NCBI RefSeq assembly: GCF_017114915.1
Contig: NZ_JAAUOE010000006.1
Coordinates: forward strand, 124,001-188,000
Source: Pseudomonas frederiksbergensis
Lineage (GTDB): Bacteria; Pseudomonadota; Gammaproteobacteria; Pseudomonadales; Pseudomonadaceae
Direction of reading: 5' to 3'
Length of the DNA stretch: 64,000 nt
Positions within the stretch are counted from its first letter, which is position 1. Every line of letters begins with the position of its first letter. The position numbers and the translations under genes are program-made. A model generated the notes under the pieces. The model saw only the letters and a list, made by a program, of their open reading frames with translations, was not told the DNA's origin and did no database searches. Below, in pieces: positions 7,809 through 12,943 of the stretch.

Positions 7809-8896
7809 GTGCGTGCCTCCCGTGCAGTACGGATATAAAGCTGCGACCAGCGTTCGGCCAAAGCCTTCAGGTCGTAACGGTCCAGTTGCGTACGTTTTGC
7901 GTTGTCGATCAATTCGCGAGCCAGCGCCGGCTCACTCAGCAACGTTTCGATGTGCCGGGCGAGGGCGGTGCTGTCGGTGGGGGGGGCCAGCAGTCCGTTG
8001 TGGCGGTCCTCCAGCACGTCGGGAATTCCGCCGACGCTGAACGCCACCACGGGCACCCCGGCCTGCATCGCCTCCAGCAAAATCATCGGCGTGCCTTCGG
8101 TGCGCGAGCTGATCACCAGCGCGTCGAGTTGTTGCCACCAGTGGACCATGTCGGTCTGGTAACCCGGCAGGGTGATGCGTTGGTGCAAGCCGGCTGCGGC
8201 AATCCGCGCCAGCAGGGTTTGTTGTTCCGGGCCGTCGCCGAGCATCACGGCGTCCAGTTGCGGGTATTGCTGGCAGAGCGGAATCAGGGCATCGAGAAAC
8301 AGGTCAGGGCCTTTTTCATGGCTCAGCCGACCGACGTAGCCCACCAGCCAGCGCGGGTGTCTGGGGTTGTGGGGCAGCAGGCCGTTGGCGGTTGGCAGAC
8401 CATTGGGGATCACTTGCAGTTTCTCCGTCCGGACACTGGCCTTGCGATGCAACACGGCGATGCTTTCGGCCACGCAAACCACCCGGGTCACCGACGCCGT
8501 GCGGCACAGTTGCAGGCTCAGCCAGCCATAGAAGCGTTGCTTGCGACTGCGCGGTGTGAATCCGTGCTGGGTGATCACCAACGGCAAATTCAACAACGTT
8601 GCGCCCACCCAGCCAAATAACAGACCCTTGAAATTGTGCGTGTTGATCAGCGGCCGTTCAGCCCGCCGCTGACGTAAATGACCCAGCAATTGCCCCAGTC
8701 CCGAGAAAGCACGGCAGTCGACCCCGGCATCGCGGAACCGATCGATCAGGGCTGGCGGCGCATCCAGAAACAGCACCTGGTGGCGTCCCGGCGTCGTCAG
8801 GCAGTGGTCCAGCAGCATCCGCTCAGCGCCATAGAAGCCGCCGCTGCTGATCAAATGCATGATCGGCAGCGCGCTGGCACTGAGCGGCCCGTTCAA
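7805..8896 (-). CDS. Glycosyltransferase family 4
   Basis: A GT-B glycosyltransferase of about 363 residues. Key features are HLISSGGFYGAE at the N-terminus (donor/acceptor loop), VGYVGRLSHEKGPDLF near the middle and the C-terminal EGTPMILLEA, the E-x7-E motif of retaining GT4 enzymes. I chose the TTG at 8896 because it overlaps the upstream stop as TTGA, like the other junctions here. A TTG at 8908 and an ATG at 8860 are also possible, and none has a strong ribosome binding site. Its role is addition of a sugar to the lipid-linked EPS repeat. Confidence 0.86.
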   Translation of the reverse strand: MNGPLSASALPIMHLISSGGFYGAERMLLDHCLTTPGRHQVLFLDAPPALIDRFRDAGVDCRAFSGLGQLLGHLRQRRAERPLINTHNFKGLLFGWVGATLLNLPLVITQHGFTPRSRKQRFYGWLSLQLCRTASVTRVVCVAESIAVLHRKASVRTEKLQVIPNGLPTANGLLPHNPRHPRWLVGYVGRLSHEKGPDLFLDALIPLCQQYPQLDAVMLGDGPEQQTLLARIAAAGLHQRITLPGYQTDMVHWWQQLDALVISSRTEGTPMILLEAMQAGVPVVAFSVGGIPDVLEDRHNGLLAPPTDSTALARHIETLLSEPALARELIDNAKRTQLDRYDLKALAERWSQLYIRTAREART

Positions 8897-10488
8897 TGCC
8901 GCACCCAATGCACGAAGCTGGGCACGGTCCAGTTTTTGTGCGGATTGAGTGGCAGGGCGTCCTGATCGTTGATCACCAACAGCACCGGCAAGCCCAGTTC
9001 ATGGGTGATTTGCGCTGGATGTTTGAAGCGGTGATCGAAGAACTCACGCACGTAGACGAACGCAATGGCCAGCAGCAGACCGGTCAGCATCCCGAACGGA
9101 ACGATCAGCAGCGGTTTGGGAAACGCCGCCTCGGTCGGTTCGTACGGTGGGCTGAGCACCTTGGCGTTGGACATGTCGTTGTCCAGCGAACGGGCGGTGC
9201 TGCTTTCGGCAAAGCGTTGCGCGTAGGTGGAGAACGCCGTGTGCAGGGCATTGATCTCGGTGTCCATCTGCTGCAACTTGCTCTGAGCCACTTGCAACTG
9301 GTGGATGCGGTTCTTGAATGCGGCGATGCGCGCGGTTTTCTGGTTGATCACCGAGGTGACAATCGCCAGGTCGTTGGTGCGCTCCTGGATCCGGTTGCTG
9401 ACGATCTTCAGGAACTGCTGACGGGTGCGGGAAATCTGCTCGCGGGTCAACAGCATCGGTTCGCTGCCCGGCTGGAACACCGCCAGGTCGTTCATGTAGC
9501 GGCTGACCTGAGTGGTCAGTTGTTCACCGAGTTGCCTGATCTCCCGGTCTTCGAAAGCAATGTTGTCCACCGTGGTGGTGAAGGTGAAGGGGAAGGTGTA
9601 ATCGCTGAGCCGGGACGTATTGGTGGCTGTCGTCAGGGCGGTTTTCAGGTAGTCGAGCCAGCGCTGGCTTTGCAGCAGGCGATCCTGATACAGGCTCAAG
9701 GCCTGCTCCTCGGTGTTGATGGCGTTGAGGCGGAAGGTGATTTCTTCCTTCGGATCGGACGAGCCCACCCCTTCGAGCAACGCCAGTCGCGTGCCTTCCA
9801 GGCCGTCGAGACGCACTTGATATTGCTTCTTCTTGGTTTCGTAGAAGCTTTGCGGCAGGTCGATCGATTGCAGTTCCTGACGGCTGGCCAGGTAGTTTTG
9901 CAACAGCGCCGCGACAAACCGGGTGCCTTGGGCCGGATCGCCAAAGCTGTAGACAACGGAGATCACGTTGGAGCCCGGCAGGGTTTCGATCTTCAGGTTC
10001 TCGATGGCCTGCTGGGTGAAGACATCCAGGTCGGTATCGCGCACGGGATCGGTCTCAAGCCCGAACGCGTCGCGCACCGGATTGATCACGTATTCACGCA
10101 AGGGGTTGGTCACCAAACGCTGGATCGGTTCGGTCACCAGTGTGCTAAAGGCCCCGAGAGGGGGCGTGTACTCACCTTTGGCCAGCAGGTCGCTGATGGT
10201 CTGACGGATCAGGGCCGGCGAGCGCAGGATATTGCTCTCGGTTTCCATGTCGGCCAGTGACGGCGGAATGAACGAGGCATCGCCTTGGGTCAGGGACGTG
10301 GTGGCGTCTCCCTGGGAGAGTTTTTTGGACTGCACGATCACCTGCGCGGTGATATCGAAGCTCTGTTTGAGCATCATCGGCAGGACCAGGGCAATCACTG
10401 CAAAGACCAGGAAGACTCGCTTCACCAACTGCTTATTGGCGAAGAAGATCCTGAAGAACTCATGCAGGTAGTTTTCCTTTGGGTTCAT
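8893..10488 (-). CDS. Wzz/GNVR chain-length determinant protein (PCP family)
   Basis: A 531-residue polysaccharide co-polymerase with an N-terminal membrane helix (about residues 22-42), a long periplasmic region with coiled-coil-like helices (about 190-440) and a C-terminal helix near 470-490 (LLIVPFGMLTGLLLAIAFVY). After the second helix only about 40 residues remain, so no kinase domain is fused; the ATPase partner is the separate gene at 11552-12196. The protein would set polymer length and couple polymerase to the outer-membrane exporter. An AGGTGA precedes the ATG. Confidence 0.87.
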   Translation of the reverse strand: MNPKENYLHEFFRIFFANKQLVKRVFLVFAVIALVLPMMLKQSFDITAQVIVQSKKLSQGDATTSLTQGDASFIPPSLADMETESNILRSPALIRQTISDLLAKGEYTPPLGAFSTLVTEPIQRLVTNPLREYVINPVRDAFGLETDPVRDTDLDVFTQQAIENLKIETLPGSNVISVVYSFGDPAQGTRFVAALLQNYLASRQELQSIDLPQSFYETKKKQYQVRLDGLEGTRLALLEGVGSSDPKEEITFRLNAINTEEQALSLYQDRLLQSQRWLDYLKTALTTATNTSRLSDYTFPFTFTTTVDNIAFEDREIRQLGEQLTTQVSRYMNDLAVFQPGSEPMLLTREQISRTRQQFLKIVSNRIQERTNDLAIVTSVINQKTARIAAFKNRIHQLQVAQSKLQQMDTEINALHTAFSTYAQRFAESSTARSLDNDMSNAKVLSPPYEPTEAAFPKPLLIVPFGMLTGLLLAIAFVYVREFFDHRFKHPAQITHELGLPVLLVINDQDALPLNPHKNWTVPSFVHWVRH

Positions 10489-10505: not shown

Positions 10506-11528
10506 TTAGTTGTTGCTGTCTTTGTTGTCGACGCGGTAGCCAAAGGTGAAGCCCACCCCCTGGAACAACACCACGTCCGCCAGTTGCCGCGCGAGTTCAC
10601 CGGCGCTGGCCAGTTTGGTCTTGGGCACGTAGAGCATGTCTTCCGGTTGCAGGTAAGCAATCTGCGACGCGTCACCGGACAAGGCTTTCTCCACGTCGTA
10701 GTGCACGGCCTGCACCTGGTTGCCGTTGCGGCGCATGATCACCACCGAATCGAGTCGCGCCTTGACGCTGGTGCCACGGGCCAGGGTCAACGCTTCAAGC
10801 ACCGAGACGGGCCGGCGAATCGGGTAGGAACCCGGTTGCGCGACTTCACCCAGCACATAGATTTCATTGCCCGAGGTGGATTTGAGCATCACGTCGACCG
10901 TCATCCGCCCGGGCAATTGCGCGTAGCGTTGGTTGAGGAAGGTTTCCAGTTGGTTGACCGTCATGCCTTGCAGCGGCACGGAGCCGATTTCCGGGAAACT
11001 GGCGTAGCCGTCGTTGCCCACGGTGATCTCCCGGCTCATGCCGGTAGCGGGGTGGTTCAGGGTGCTCCTGAGGTTCTGCTCGTTGCTCAGCGGGCTGGTG
11101 ACCAGCACGGTCAGCTGGTTGCGATTGGGCTGGAACAGGGCTTTGCGGTTATAGACGCGCTGGATTTCCTCCCGGGCTTGGACCGACGTCAACCCGCCGA
11201 TTTTCACCGCGGTGTTGGCCCCCGGCAGTTCGATGGTGCCATCGGGCAGCACCAGTTGCGTGCCGTTGAGCTGGCTGGCCGCGGTGAAGTTCAGGGCGAC
11301 CTGGTCACCGGGTTGAATCCGATAAGCCTGCGAACCGCTGGTGCTGATGTGGAAGATCACATCCAGCACGTCTTTGGGTCGCAGGGTCTGTTCGACCCTG
11401 GGCATGTCGGTGGCCTGGGCGTTGGCCGGCTCGGCCGTGAGAATCTGCACCGGCATGTTCTGGGTTTCACTGGTGCTGGAGCAGCCTGCAAGCGGCAGCA
11501 ACAGCAGGACAAGCATTTTGGCGTTCAT
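10506..11528 (-). CDS. Outer-membrane polysaccharide export lipoprotein (Wza family)
   Basis: A 340-residue protein with a lipoprotein signal ending in LLLPLAGCSS, where Cys is the likely lipidation site. A Poly_export region follows (YRIQPGDQVALNF, VLPDGTIELPG) with SLBB-type segments (IYVLGEVAQPGSYPI). It would form the outer-membrane channel for the EPS. The ATG at 11528 is chosen because AAGGATG sits just upstream and it gives a normal lipoprotein signal; a longer in-frame start would extend into the preceding ATPase gene. Spacing to the neighbours is 17 to 23 bases. Confidence 0.9.
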   Translation of the reverse strand: MNAKMLVLLLLPLAGCSSTSETQNMPVQILTAEPANAQATDMPRVEQTLRPKDVLDVIFHISTSGSQAYRIQPGDQVALNFTAASQLNGTQLVLPDGTIELPGANTAVKIGGLTSVQAREEIQRVYNRKALFQPNRNQLTVLVTSPLSNEQNLRSTLNHPATGMSREITVGNDGYASFPEIGSVPLQGMTVNQLETFLNQRYAQLPGRMTVDVMLKSTSGNEIYVLGEVAQPGSYPIRRPVSVLEALTLARGTSVKARLDSVVIMRRNGNQVQAVHYDVEKALSGDASQIAYLQPEDMLYVPKTKLASAGELARQLADVVLFQGVGFTFGYRVDNKDSNN

Positions 11529-11551: not shown

Positions 11552-12196
11552 TTACAGGTTTTTGTAGAGCCACTTGGGCATGTAGTACTTGCGCCGGTTG
11601 AAGACGCTGCCCACTATTTTCGCGCCGGCCTGGGTCAGGCGCTGGACCGCGGCCTGGGCCACTTCCCAGCGCGTGTCTTCAGCGCGCACCACCATGATCA
11701 CGCCGTCCACCAGGGTGCCGATGACCAGGGCGTCGTCGGCTGAGTACACCGCATCGCCGTCGATCACCACGAAGCGATACAGACTGCTCAGTTGCTTGAA
11801 CAACGGATTCAGCTGTTCGGCCGTCAGGTGCTCGGCGCCGCGGATGTGCCGCCCGTTCGGCAGGATGTGGAAGGGCAGGCTGGAGACGTTCACCAGACAG
11901 TCCTGCAACAGCGGCGGGGAGGCGTTGAACAACAAGTCGCGAAAGCCGCGCTCTTTGGTCAGCCCCAGCTGTTGGGTAAGGTTGCTTTCCGACTGGCTGG
12001 CGTCCACCAGCAACACCTGGCCGCTGCTCATCGACGCCAGCTGGCTGGCCAGCGCCAGGGCGCTGGTGGTAGTACCGGTGCCTGGGTTGGCGGCGGTCAG
12101 AAAGAGGATCCGCAGATCCAGGTCGAGCACGGTCGAGGTCAGGTTGGACTCGCTCGGGCTGGCGATGGTCAGGCTGTTATTCGATGAACCGTCCAT
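11552..12196 (-). CDS. BY-kinase-like ATPase with degenerate Walker A
   Basis: A 214-residue protein related to the CpsD/CapB/Wzc cytoplasmic ATPase. The P-loop region reads ANPGTGTTTS: the invariant lysine of GxGK[ST] is replaced by Thr, checked directly in the codons (ggt act acc acc). Walker A' reads LLVDASQSE instead of a DxD-type motif, and the Walker B region is VVIDGDAVYSADD. The C-terminus has only three tyrosines (YYMPKWLY). It may bind nucleotide poorly and act as a structural partner of the Wzz-like protein rather than an active tyrosine kinase. It begins directly after the sugar transferase stop codon. Confidence 0.82.
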   Translation of the reverse strand: MDGSSNNSLTIASPSESNLTSTVLDLDLRILFLTAANPGTGTTTSALALASQLASMSSGQVLLVDASQSESNLTQQLGLTKERGFRDLLFNASPPLLQDCLVNVSSLPFHILPNGRHIRGAEHLTAEQLNPLFKQLSSLYRFVVIDGDAVYSADDALVIGTLVDGVIMVVRAEDTRWEVAQAAVQRLTQAGAKIVGSVFNRRKYYMPKWLYKNL

Positions 12197-12943
12197 TTAA
12201 CTCGCTCCGTGGCCGCTGAATACTTTGAAGGGGGTTTTCAACAGGATCTTCAGATCAAGCAAAAGGCTCTGCTCGGCGATATAGGTGAGGTCCAACTCAA
12301 CGCGCTGGTCGAAGTCGATATTGCTGCGCCCGGAGATCTGCCACAGGCCGGTCATGCCGGGGTAGATGCTCAGGCGTGCGAGGTGACTGTCCTTGTACCG
12401 ATGAGCGTTGAACGAGGTCGGCCGTGGGCCCACCAAGCGCATGTCGCCGCTGACCACATTGATCAGGTTCGGTAACTCATCAAGGCTGCTGCGCCGCAGG
12501 AAGCCGCCGATGGGGGTAATCCGCGGGTCGTCGTCGATCTTGAAATCGATCGCGTCGGCGCCGTGCTTGTTGAGGTGGCGCAGGGACTCTTTGAGCTCCT
12601 CGGCGTTGGCCACCATGGTGCGGAACTTGTACATGCCGAACAGGCGGCCGCGGTAGCCGGTGCGTTGTTGCACGAACATCACCGGCCCCGGGCTGCTGAA
12701 CTTGATCACCAGCGCCAGGCCCAGCAGCACCGGCGAGATCAGCAGCAGAATCACCAGCGCACCGAGGCAGGCGACCACCCGATTGGTGCGCGACAGGGTC
12801 CAGGGCCGACCACCGTTGCGGCCGGTCACCCAACCGCGACCCTGCATGTGGATTGCCTTGTCGAGGCGCATTCGGTGCTCGGGGTCCAGACGGTTGTCAC
12901 GCTGCATGTGATTGAACAACAGCCCTTTTTCATGTCCAGTCAT
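12197..12943 (-). CDS. Priming undecaprenyl-phosphate sugar-1-P transferase
   Basis: A 248-residue bacterial sugar transferase (PF02397-like). It has one N-terminal membrane helix (about residues 56-80) followed by the catalytic domain with the usual blocks: FSSPGPVMFVQQRTGYRG, MYKFRTM, RRSSLDELPNLINV, MRLVGPRP and PGMTGLWQISGRS. The enzyme transfers a sugar-1-phosphate to undecaprenyl phosphate and starts repeat-unit assembly. It lacks the extra N-terminal helices and CoA-binding-like domain of full-length WbaP/WcaJ. A strong GGAGG lies 6 bases before the ATG. Confidence 0.9.
   Translation of the reverse strand: MTGHEKGLLFNHMQRDNRLDPEHRMRLDKAIHMQGRGWVTGRNGGRPWTLSRTNRVVACLGALVILLLISPVLLGLALVIKFSSPGPVMFVQQRTGYRGRLFGMYKFRTMVANAEELKESLRHLNKHGADAIDFKIDDDPRITPIGGFLRRSSLDELPNLINVVSGDMRLVGPRPTSFNAHRYKDSHLARLSIYPGMTGLWQISGRSNIDFDQRVELDLTYIAEQSLLLDLKILLKTPFKVFSGHGAS

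Follow-up and report, generated by a model that had tools for sequence, protein, structure and literature searches.

A stand-alone BY-kinase-like protein without the P-loop lysine in the pap polysaccharide cluster of Pseudomonas frederiksbergensis

The papD gene and its setting in the pap cluster

The window analyzed here, a 64,000-nucleotide stretch of P. frederiksbergensis DNA, carries on its minus strand papD, which reads from position 12196 down to 11552 (stop codon included) and encodes a stand-alone BY-kinase-like protein of 214 aa without the P-loop lysine, as identified from the ORF and from profile and sequence matches. The 214 codons contain no internal stop, consistent with the original prediction of an intact gene in a tight operon. 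Directly upstream, the stop codon of papC (12197–12943; initiating phosphoglycosyltransferase) abuts the papD start, and downstream, the ATG of papE (10506–11528; polysaccharide export protein, Wza-like with SLBB) is found at position 11528, 23 bases past the papD stop. The next-but-one gene to papD, papF (8893–10488), encodes a polysaccharide co-polymerase (PCP) of the Wzz/GumC-like chain-length determinant type, which we presume to be the partner of PapD: this 531-aa protein matched only Wzz and, below threshold, GNVR, and has no kinase domain. All three neighbors were identified through profile matches. The PCP ORFs end soon past their second predicted membrane segment with a short extension, and in PapF this C-terminal extension (REFFDHRFKHPAQITHELGLPVLLV...SFVHWVRH, approximately 8896–9063, minus strand) is the proposed docking segment for PapD.

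The whole cluster lies on the minus strand. Upstream of papC are papA (UDP-glucose dehydrogenase) and papB (epimerase), and papF is followed by papG (glycosyltransferase), papH (Wzy/O-antigen-ligase-like), and papI and papJ (both glycosyltransferases), with three genes beyond papJ called papK, papL, and papM from their position only. These names were transferred from the pap cluster of P. fluorescens F113 (PMC7716237) based on gene order and lengths, and not on the sequences of that study. In F113, PapD is likewise 214 aa long and encoded between PapC and PapE in the same cluster order, and the two proteins are thus equated here without sequence comparison. Judged by order and length, the gene in the window corresponds to papD in the cluster for Pseudomonas acidic polysaccharide (pap). 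The F113 protein was named a CpsD/CapB tyrosine kinase, and the passages of PMC7716237 available to us do not mention the missing lysine. The output of the pathway is poorly known, since a papA mutant of F113 (there P. ogarae) was described, in the part of PMC10850567 consulted, as having only a mild biofilm phenotype.

All three Walker motifs of PapD are degenerate, as originally predicted. At residues 37–45 (12062–12088, minus strand as for all features below), Walker A reads NPGTGTTTS in place of GxGK[ST], with T42 (codon 12071–12073) at the lysine position. Based on sequence and alignment, Walker A' (VLLVDASQS, residues 61–69, 11990–12016) keeps the first Asp, D65, and has lost the second Asp and the Arg, and Walker B (FVVIDGDAV, residues 142–150, 11747–11773) keeps an invariant D146 and has lost the TPP. 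A small tyrosine cluster had also been predicted at the C-terminus. Only three Tyr (Y204, Y205, and Y211) are indeed present, yet they form part of a fixed motif within a conserved, family-specific tail (NRRKYYMPKWLYKNL, residues 200–214, 11555–11599) rather than a Tyr-rich cluster. Another motif, PSESNLTSTVLD, is located near the N-terminus (residues 14–25, 12122–12157).

By sequence, the best solved relative of PapD was the kinase domain of VpsO (E 1.3e-18); the same search matched 14 further BceF, CapB, Etk, and Wzc sequences. PapD did not reach the curated cut-off of any model listed at E ≤ 0.01 (4 from Pfam and 9 from NCBIfam), including TIGR03018 (80.1 bits for a cut-off of 230.65; E 1.3e-22), TIGR01007 (60.4 bits for 108.05), TIGR03029 (53.5 bits for 313.8), and Pfam AAA_31 (25.7 for 27). 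A Pfam MctB match, also under cut-off (E 3.3e-5), was taken as chance. MinD/ParA models scored far under the BY-kinase models (TIGR01969, 33.6 bits for a cut-off of 201.75; TIGR01968, 25 bits for 212.9), and the deviant Walker A KGGxGK[ST], which is the hallmark of MinD/ParA ATPases, was absent from the 214-aa sequence. The EX2RX2R motif, through which BY-kinases form rings, was missed in the PapD row of the alignment; this comparison is weak, as the same cut-out recovered the motif from just 8 of the 17 canonical rows. Sequence homology makes PapD a relative of BY-kinases, and its Walker A and A' motifs and its tail set it apart from the canonical Wzc, CapB, and CpsD kinases.

Conservation and constraint across papD orthologues

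Next, we evaluated the conservation of the lysine loss across 398 genomes of the genus. Orthologues (E 1.5e-58 or better, identity of at least 48%, PapD query covered from residue ≤11 to ≥211) were detected at 121 places in 120 genomes, including the window's own, and all 121 were read. Combined with 80 further loci, these provided 201 Pseudomonas rows, only 159 of which are distinct because the two row sets overlap in genomes. Not one of the 201 rows had a lysine in the P-loop: the corresponding residue was Thr in 191, Ile in 9, and Val in 1, which answers the question raised by the original prediction of whether this Thr is conserved. T/S43, D65, and D146 were each kept in 201/201 rows, while the second Asp of Walker A' was replaced by Ser in 199 (with a single Cys and a single Asp in the other two), and the first Gly of the P-loop was lost in 7. 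The tail was close to invariant, with R202, Y205, and P207 found in all 201 rows, W209 and Y211 in 200, and Y204 in 199.

Similar loci were identified outside of the genus. Nine pap-type loci (L205–L212 and L217), which belong to five further families of the order, displayed Thr, Cys, Val, or Ala at the lysine position, and Lys in none (0/9). Five of them (L205, L206, L207, L208, and L210) carry papC to papJ in order, L206 with papK and papL in addition, L209 and L217 carry papD to papJ, and L211 and L212 carry papC, papD, papF, and papG with no recognized papE, several of the nine being cut by contig or locus ends. papF was present in 9/9 of these loci, and both papE and papF in 80/80 of the named loci with papD. 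The original prediction had held that lysine in homologues of the same operon type would point to a local mutation, and none was found in either the 201 rows or these nine loci.

Several side observations were made on these loci. The passages of PMC7716237 consulted state that the complete Pap pathway occurs only in Pseudomonas, in contrast with the nine pap-type clusters (examined over the papC–papL range) detected outside the genus, one of which (L206:1494-12740) carries papC to papL in a single run. In L211, the papF homologue (L211:2392-3996, on a 6.5-kb contig) consists of two ORFs with one in-frame stop codon between them, and the PapD homologues of L211 and L212 (L211:4126-4908 and L212:2626-3381) include an insert of ~45 residues after the P-loop helix and ahead of the Walker A' strand. 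Within Pseudomonas, one genome (G377) encodes two diverged papD copies, L127 on contig C48 and L130 on contig C66, which are ~56% and ~47% identical to the papD of the window, on contigs of ~8 kb each.

papD is under purifying selection like the neighboring pap genes. Across 80 copies, none of which contained a stop, the median pairwise omega was 0.146 for a median dS of 0.53, and neighboring genes displayed median omega values of 0.109 (papC), 0.104 (papE), 0.129 (papF), 0.144 (papG), and 0.150 (papH), from 77–80 loci each. The absence of Lys from all rows together with this omega value lends evolutionary, sequence-level support to the original prediction that the gene is probably maintained for a function in which normal kinase activity is dispensable.

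This constraint is distributed unevenly along the gene. We estimated pN/pS from 181 distinct papD nucleotide sequences (the partial L107 being left out) and obtained 0.338 for the whole gene, to be compared with 0.348 at the P-loop (residues 35–45) and 0.481 at Walker A' (60–72), i.e., no tighter than the gene as a whole. Lower values were obtained for Walker B (140–152; 0.133), the tail (200–214; 0.124), and the N-terminal PSESNLTSTVLD motif (0.111). Among 200 windows of 15 codons, the three lowest started at codons 197, 196, and 195, and thus run into the tail; windows starting at 195–200 made up 6 of the lowest 8, while the P-loop window, starting at 33, ranked 108th. Identity windows provided a similar picture: the PapD P-loop ranked 81st of 204 among 159 sequences and 63rd of 204 among 27 diverse rows, and the window starting at 199, in the tail, ranked first in both sets. 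For comparison, the P-loop ranked 7th of 224 in 16 canonical BY-kinase domains from Pseudomonas (16 of 20 sequences, four with an unparsed P-loop being left out, one of which, L339, reads PDEGKS). These ranks suggest that the special constraint is gone from the P-loop and is now found in the tail.

A wider tail class and comparison to known systems

To place PapD in a broader context, profile searches were conducted across 293 genomes of the order, 369 of the class, and 398 of the phylum, with at most 10, 8, and 7 candidates per genome scored, respectively, and the lists capped; the members of the tail class counted below are thus a minimum. Further stand-alone BY-kinase-like proteins were found to end in N[KR]R.[YF].[IVM]P.W[LIV]Y or a close variant, and in the neighborhoods read (L213–L218 and L220) these were located near PCP- and Wza-like genes. 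No relatives were found in viral contigs. For the wider set, rows with the tail were kept and canonical Tyr-tail rows (L219 and L221–L224) were left out. Among the matches listed, PapD included, 22 of 28 members of the tail class had no Lys and 6 had one (L216, L220, L302, L303, L304, and L306). The 22 Lys-less rows retained S/T43 and D146 in all cases and D/E65 in 21, and had lost the first P-loop Gly in 7. No clear substitute for the Lys was identified among the basic columns kept in ≥60% of these 22 rows: R176, R201, and R202 were equally common or commoner in Lys-bearing tail rows, and K203, within the tail, was only somewhat commoner in Lys-less rows (19/22 vs 3/6).

In a tree built with the P-loop and tail columns removed, the Lys changed state 6 times (4–6 in bootstraps), with at least 2 changes forced by the starred branches. 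This pattern is most simply read from the sequences as repeated loss of the Lys within the tail class, the alternative being one loss followed by regain. A single clade of all tail rows was neither rejected (p-AU 0.441) nor demonstrated; the free tree sets L217 apart, though weakly supported, and five of the rows lie on long branches. The second Asp of Walker A' is an Asn in 4 of the 6 tail rows that keep the Lys, which suggests that the kinase site changed before the Lys was lost.

Pairs of a BY-kinase-like protein and a PCP of this kind were reportedly listed by Cuthbertson et al. on the basis of sequence. Two such proteins, EcpK of Myxococcus xanthus and HfsB of Caulobacter crescentus, are described in the consulted parts of PMC12004946 as BY-kinase-like, without catalytic residues, and partnered with kinase-less PCPs, and are likened here to PapD by published description rather than by sequence. 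EcpK resembles PapD as a stand-alone BY-kinase fold in which the catalytic motifs are not intact, a loss shared by its orthologues, and which acts in a Wzx/Wzy pathway with a PCP, EpsV, devoid of a kinase domain. According to the same study, EcpK binds EpsV in a two-hybrid assay, each of the two requires the other to accumulate, and the C-terminal extension of EpsV was modeled in a groove of EcpK. As described there, however, EcpK keeps no Walker motif and misses several helices, whereas PapD keeps the acidic Walker residues; the EcpK C-terminus is a Lys/Arg-rich helix without Tyr, in contrast to the conserved YYMPKWLY tail of PapD; and epsV has no adjoining BY-kinase gene, whereas papD lies two genes from papF. 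HfsB is likewise stand-alone, misses catalytic residues, and is partnered with a kinase-less PCP, HfsA, for the stability of which it is important, but unlike PapD it is reported in those passages (PMC12004946) without a Tyr-rich tail.

VpsO of Vibrio cholerae (6u1q), Wzc, Etk, BceF, and CapB belong to the same family as PapD by sequence. In contrast to PapD, however, all three Walker motifs and a Tyr-rich tail are described in PMC12004946 for Wzc, Etk, VpsO, and CapB, and the matches of these proteins to a profile of the PapD class stop at positions 200–203, before the tail. Of 57 solved sequences matching this profile at E ≤ 0.001, the only two that match into the tail are those of PslE from Pseudomonas aeruginosa (9v6l and 9v75, 8 chains each), at positions 141–210 (E 3.7e-10 and 1.5e-09, with NRRRFEVPSK in the alignment). 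Unlike PapD, PslE includes the PCP and the degenerate domain in one chain, of which only the Walker B-to-tail part is recognized by sequence, and the aligned stretch shows no Trp after the Pro. A search of an open-access library found no paper on these two structures, and the word “kinase” occurs 0 times in the main text, as available to us, of PMC6813494, which deals with PslE interactions.

Possible functions of PapD

We consider it probable that PapD is a BY pseudokinase with a structural role in the polysaccharide co-polymerase, of which it would be a subunit scaffolding PapF without normal autophosphorylation. In the mechanism we propose, PapF would bind PapD through its cytoplasmic C-terminal extension, which would supply the first helix and strand that PapD is missing, and PapD would cap the cytoplasmic base of the PapF assembly. 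The aromatic, cationic YYMPKWLY tail would pack on a neighboring subunit, on the base of one PapF membrane helix, or on the membrane surface, and this contact would stand in for the phospho-tyrosine switch of Wzc and CapB. By analogy with Wzc, which PMC12004946 shows as an octamer carrying a Lys540-to-Met change, the natural loss of the Lys may favor the assembled state. We infer the docking of PapD at the PapF extension, which is similar in length to that of the PCP partner of EcpK, from the EcpK/EpsV system, and we likewise infer the absence of catalysis, the binding to PapF, the tail contacts, and a role in chain-length control and export. An AlphaFold model of PapD was poor (mean pLDDT 56, with the tail and P-loop < 50) because only close relatives were available as input, and a fold search from this weak model retrieved VpsO and Wzc as top matches (VpsO: E 5.6e-05, TM-score 0.44, rmsd 7.2).

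Some observations count against this scaffold. The kept Mg-binding positions and the constraint retained at Walker B argue in part against a plain scaffold, which need not preserve them. In addition, PapD has three Tyr where, according to the descriptions seen, the EcpK tail has none and HfsB has no Tyr-rich tail, and distant members of the tail class with a Lys exist among the matches listed.

The kept Mg-binding residues are the basis for an alternative to which we give a minor share of the probability, namely that PapD is a Lys-less P-loop protein that still binds nucleotide and is perhaps active, in which T/S43, D65, and D146 would hold Mg and nucleotide as a structural or switching ligand. 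An analogy is provided by WNK kinases, which work without the usual lysine. Since the Mg-binding residues are complete across the Pseudomonas rows and nearly so in the Lys-less rows of the wider set, PapD may still bind nucleotide, and the tight Walker B is consistent with this. PDB entry titles (“Wzc-K540M ... MgADP”), taken by themselves, also suggest that a Lys-less BY-kinase may hold nucleotide. However, none of the basic residues conserved in PapD emerged as a clear replacement for the Lys, the P-loop and Walker A' are under no extra constraint relative to the gene, and some rows of both sets have lost the first Gly of the P-loop, while D65 and D146 may serve the fold instead.

Somewhat less probable is a role of PapD as a substrate, with a canonical BY-kinase such as Wzc phosphorylating the tail Tyr and thus operating the switch in trans. 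The near-invariance of these three Tyr would be expected in this case, and 28 of 50 pap genomes (those listed with ≤10 contigs, numbers that look rounded; G074 also qualifies and was left out) have a BY-kinase match over the TIGR01007 cut-off. However, the other 22 genomes, without a match over the cut-off, retain Y204, Y205, and Y211 in 22/22 cases, so that conservation of the tail seems not to need a canonical BY-kinase, and P207 and W209 are constrained as much as the Tyr. Other tyrosine kinases, or BY-kinases scoring under the cut-off, could still act as the phosphorylating enzyme. In the genome of the window itself, 0 of 11 BY-kinase matches scored over the cut-off. At the end of contig C82 (L143:14699-15710), the same genome carries a gene for a Wzb-like low-molecular-weight phosphatase, behind which a wzc gene starts and runs off the contig, and no kinase half over the BY-kinase cut-off was found in the rest of the assembly. 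Because this wzc start is cut by the contig end, the missing match may well be an assembly gap, and the argument that the tail Tyr cannot be phosphorylated for lack of a BY-kinase in the genome was dropped on account of the wzb-like gene and the truncated wzc start. Finally, a recent, strain-specific loss of the Lys in a decaying gene, which an off-consensus P-loop and the joint alteration of three Walker motifs might suggest, is refuted by the absence of Lys from all Pseudomonas rows and from the pap-type loci of other families, and by purifying selection at a median dS of 0.53 with no stop in any copy used, and we give it almost no weight.

Beyond the pseudokinase scaffold proposed for PapD itself, we tentatively suggest, as a broader reading that we hold to be possible but not the likeliest outcome, that stand-alone BY-kinase-like PCP subunits marked by a tail close to N[KR]R.[YF].[IVM]P.W[LIV]Y form an undescribed class, of which PapD is a member. 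In this class, a fixed aromatic tail would have replaced the tyrosine switch while ATP could still bind, the Lys would have been lost later and repeatedly, PslE would represent a fused form, and the oligomeric state of the co-polymerase would be determined by the tail rather than by phosphorylation.

The published label of PapD as a tyrosine kinase is probably wrong, and the protein is an apparently kinase-dead example that occurs naturally in plant-associated Pseudomonas, within a cluster whose genes have names. As such, PapD bears on how PCP-2 co-polymerases cycle without tyrosine phosphorylation. The conserved tail provides a precise handle on PapD function, and the link to PslE may tie PapD to a system with solved structures.
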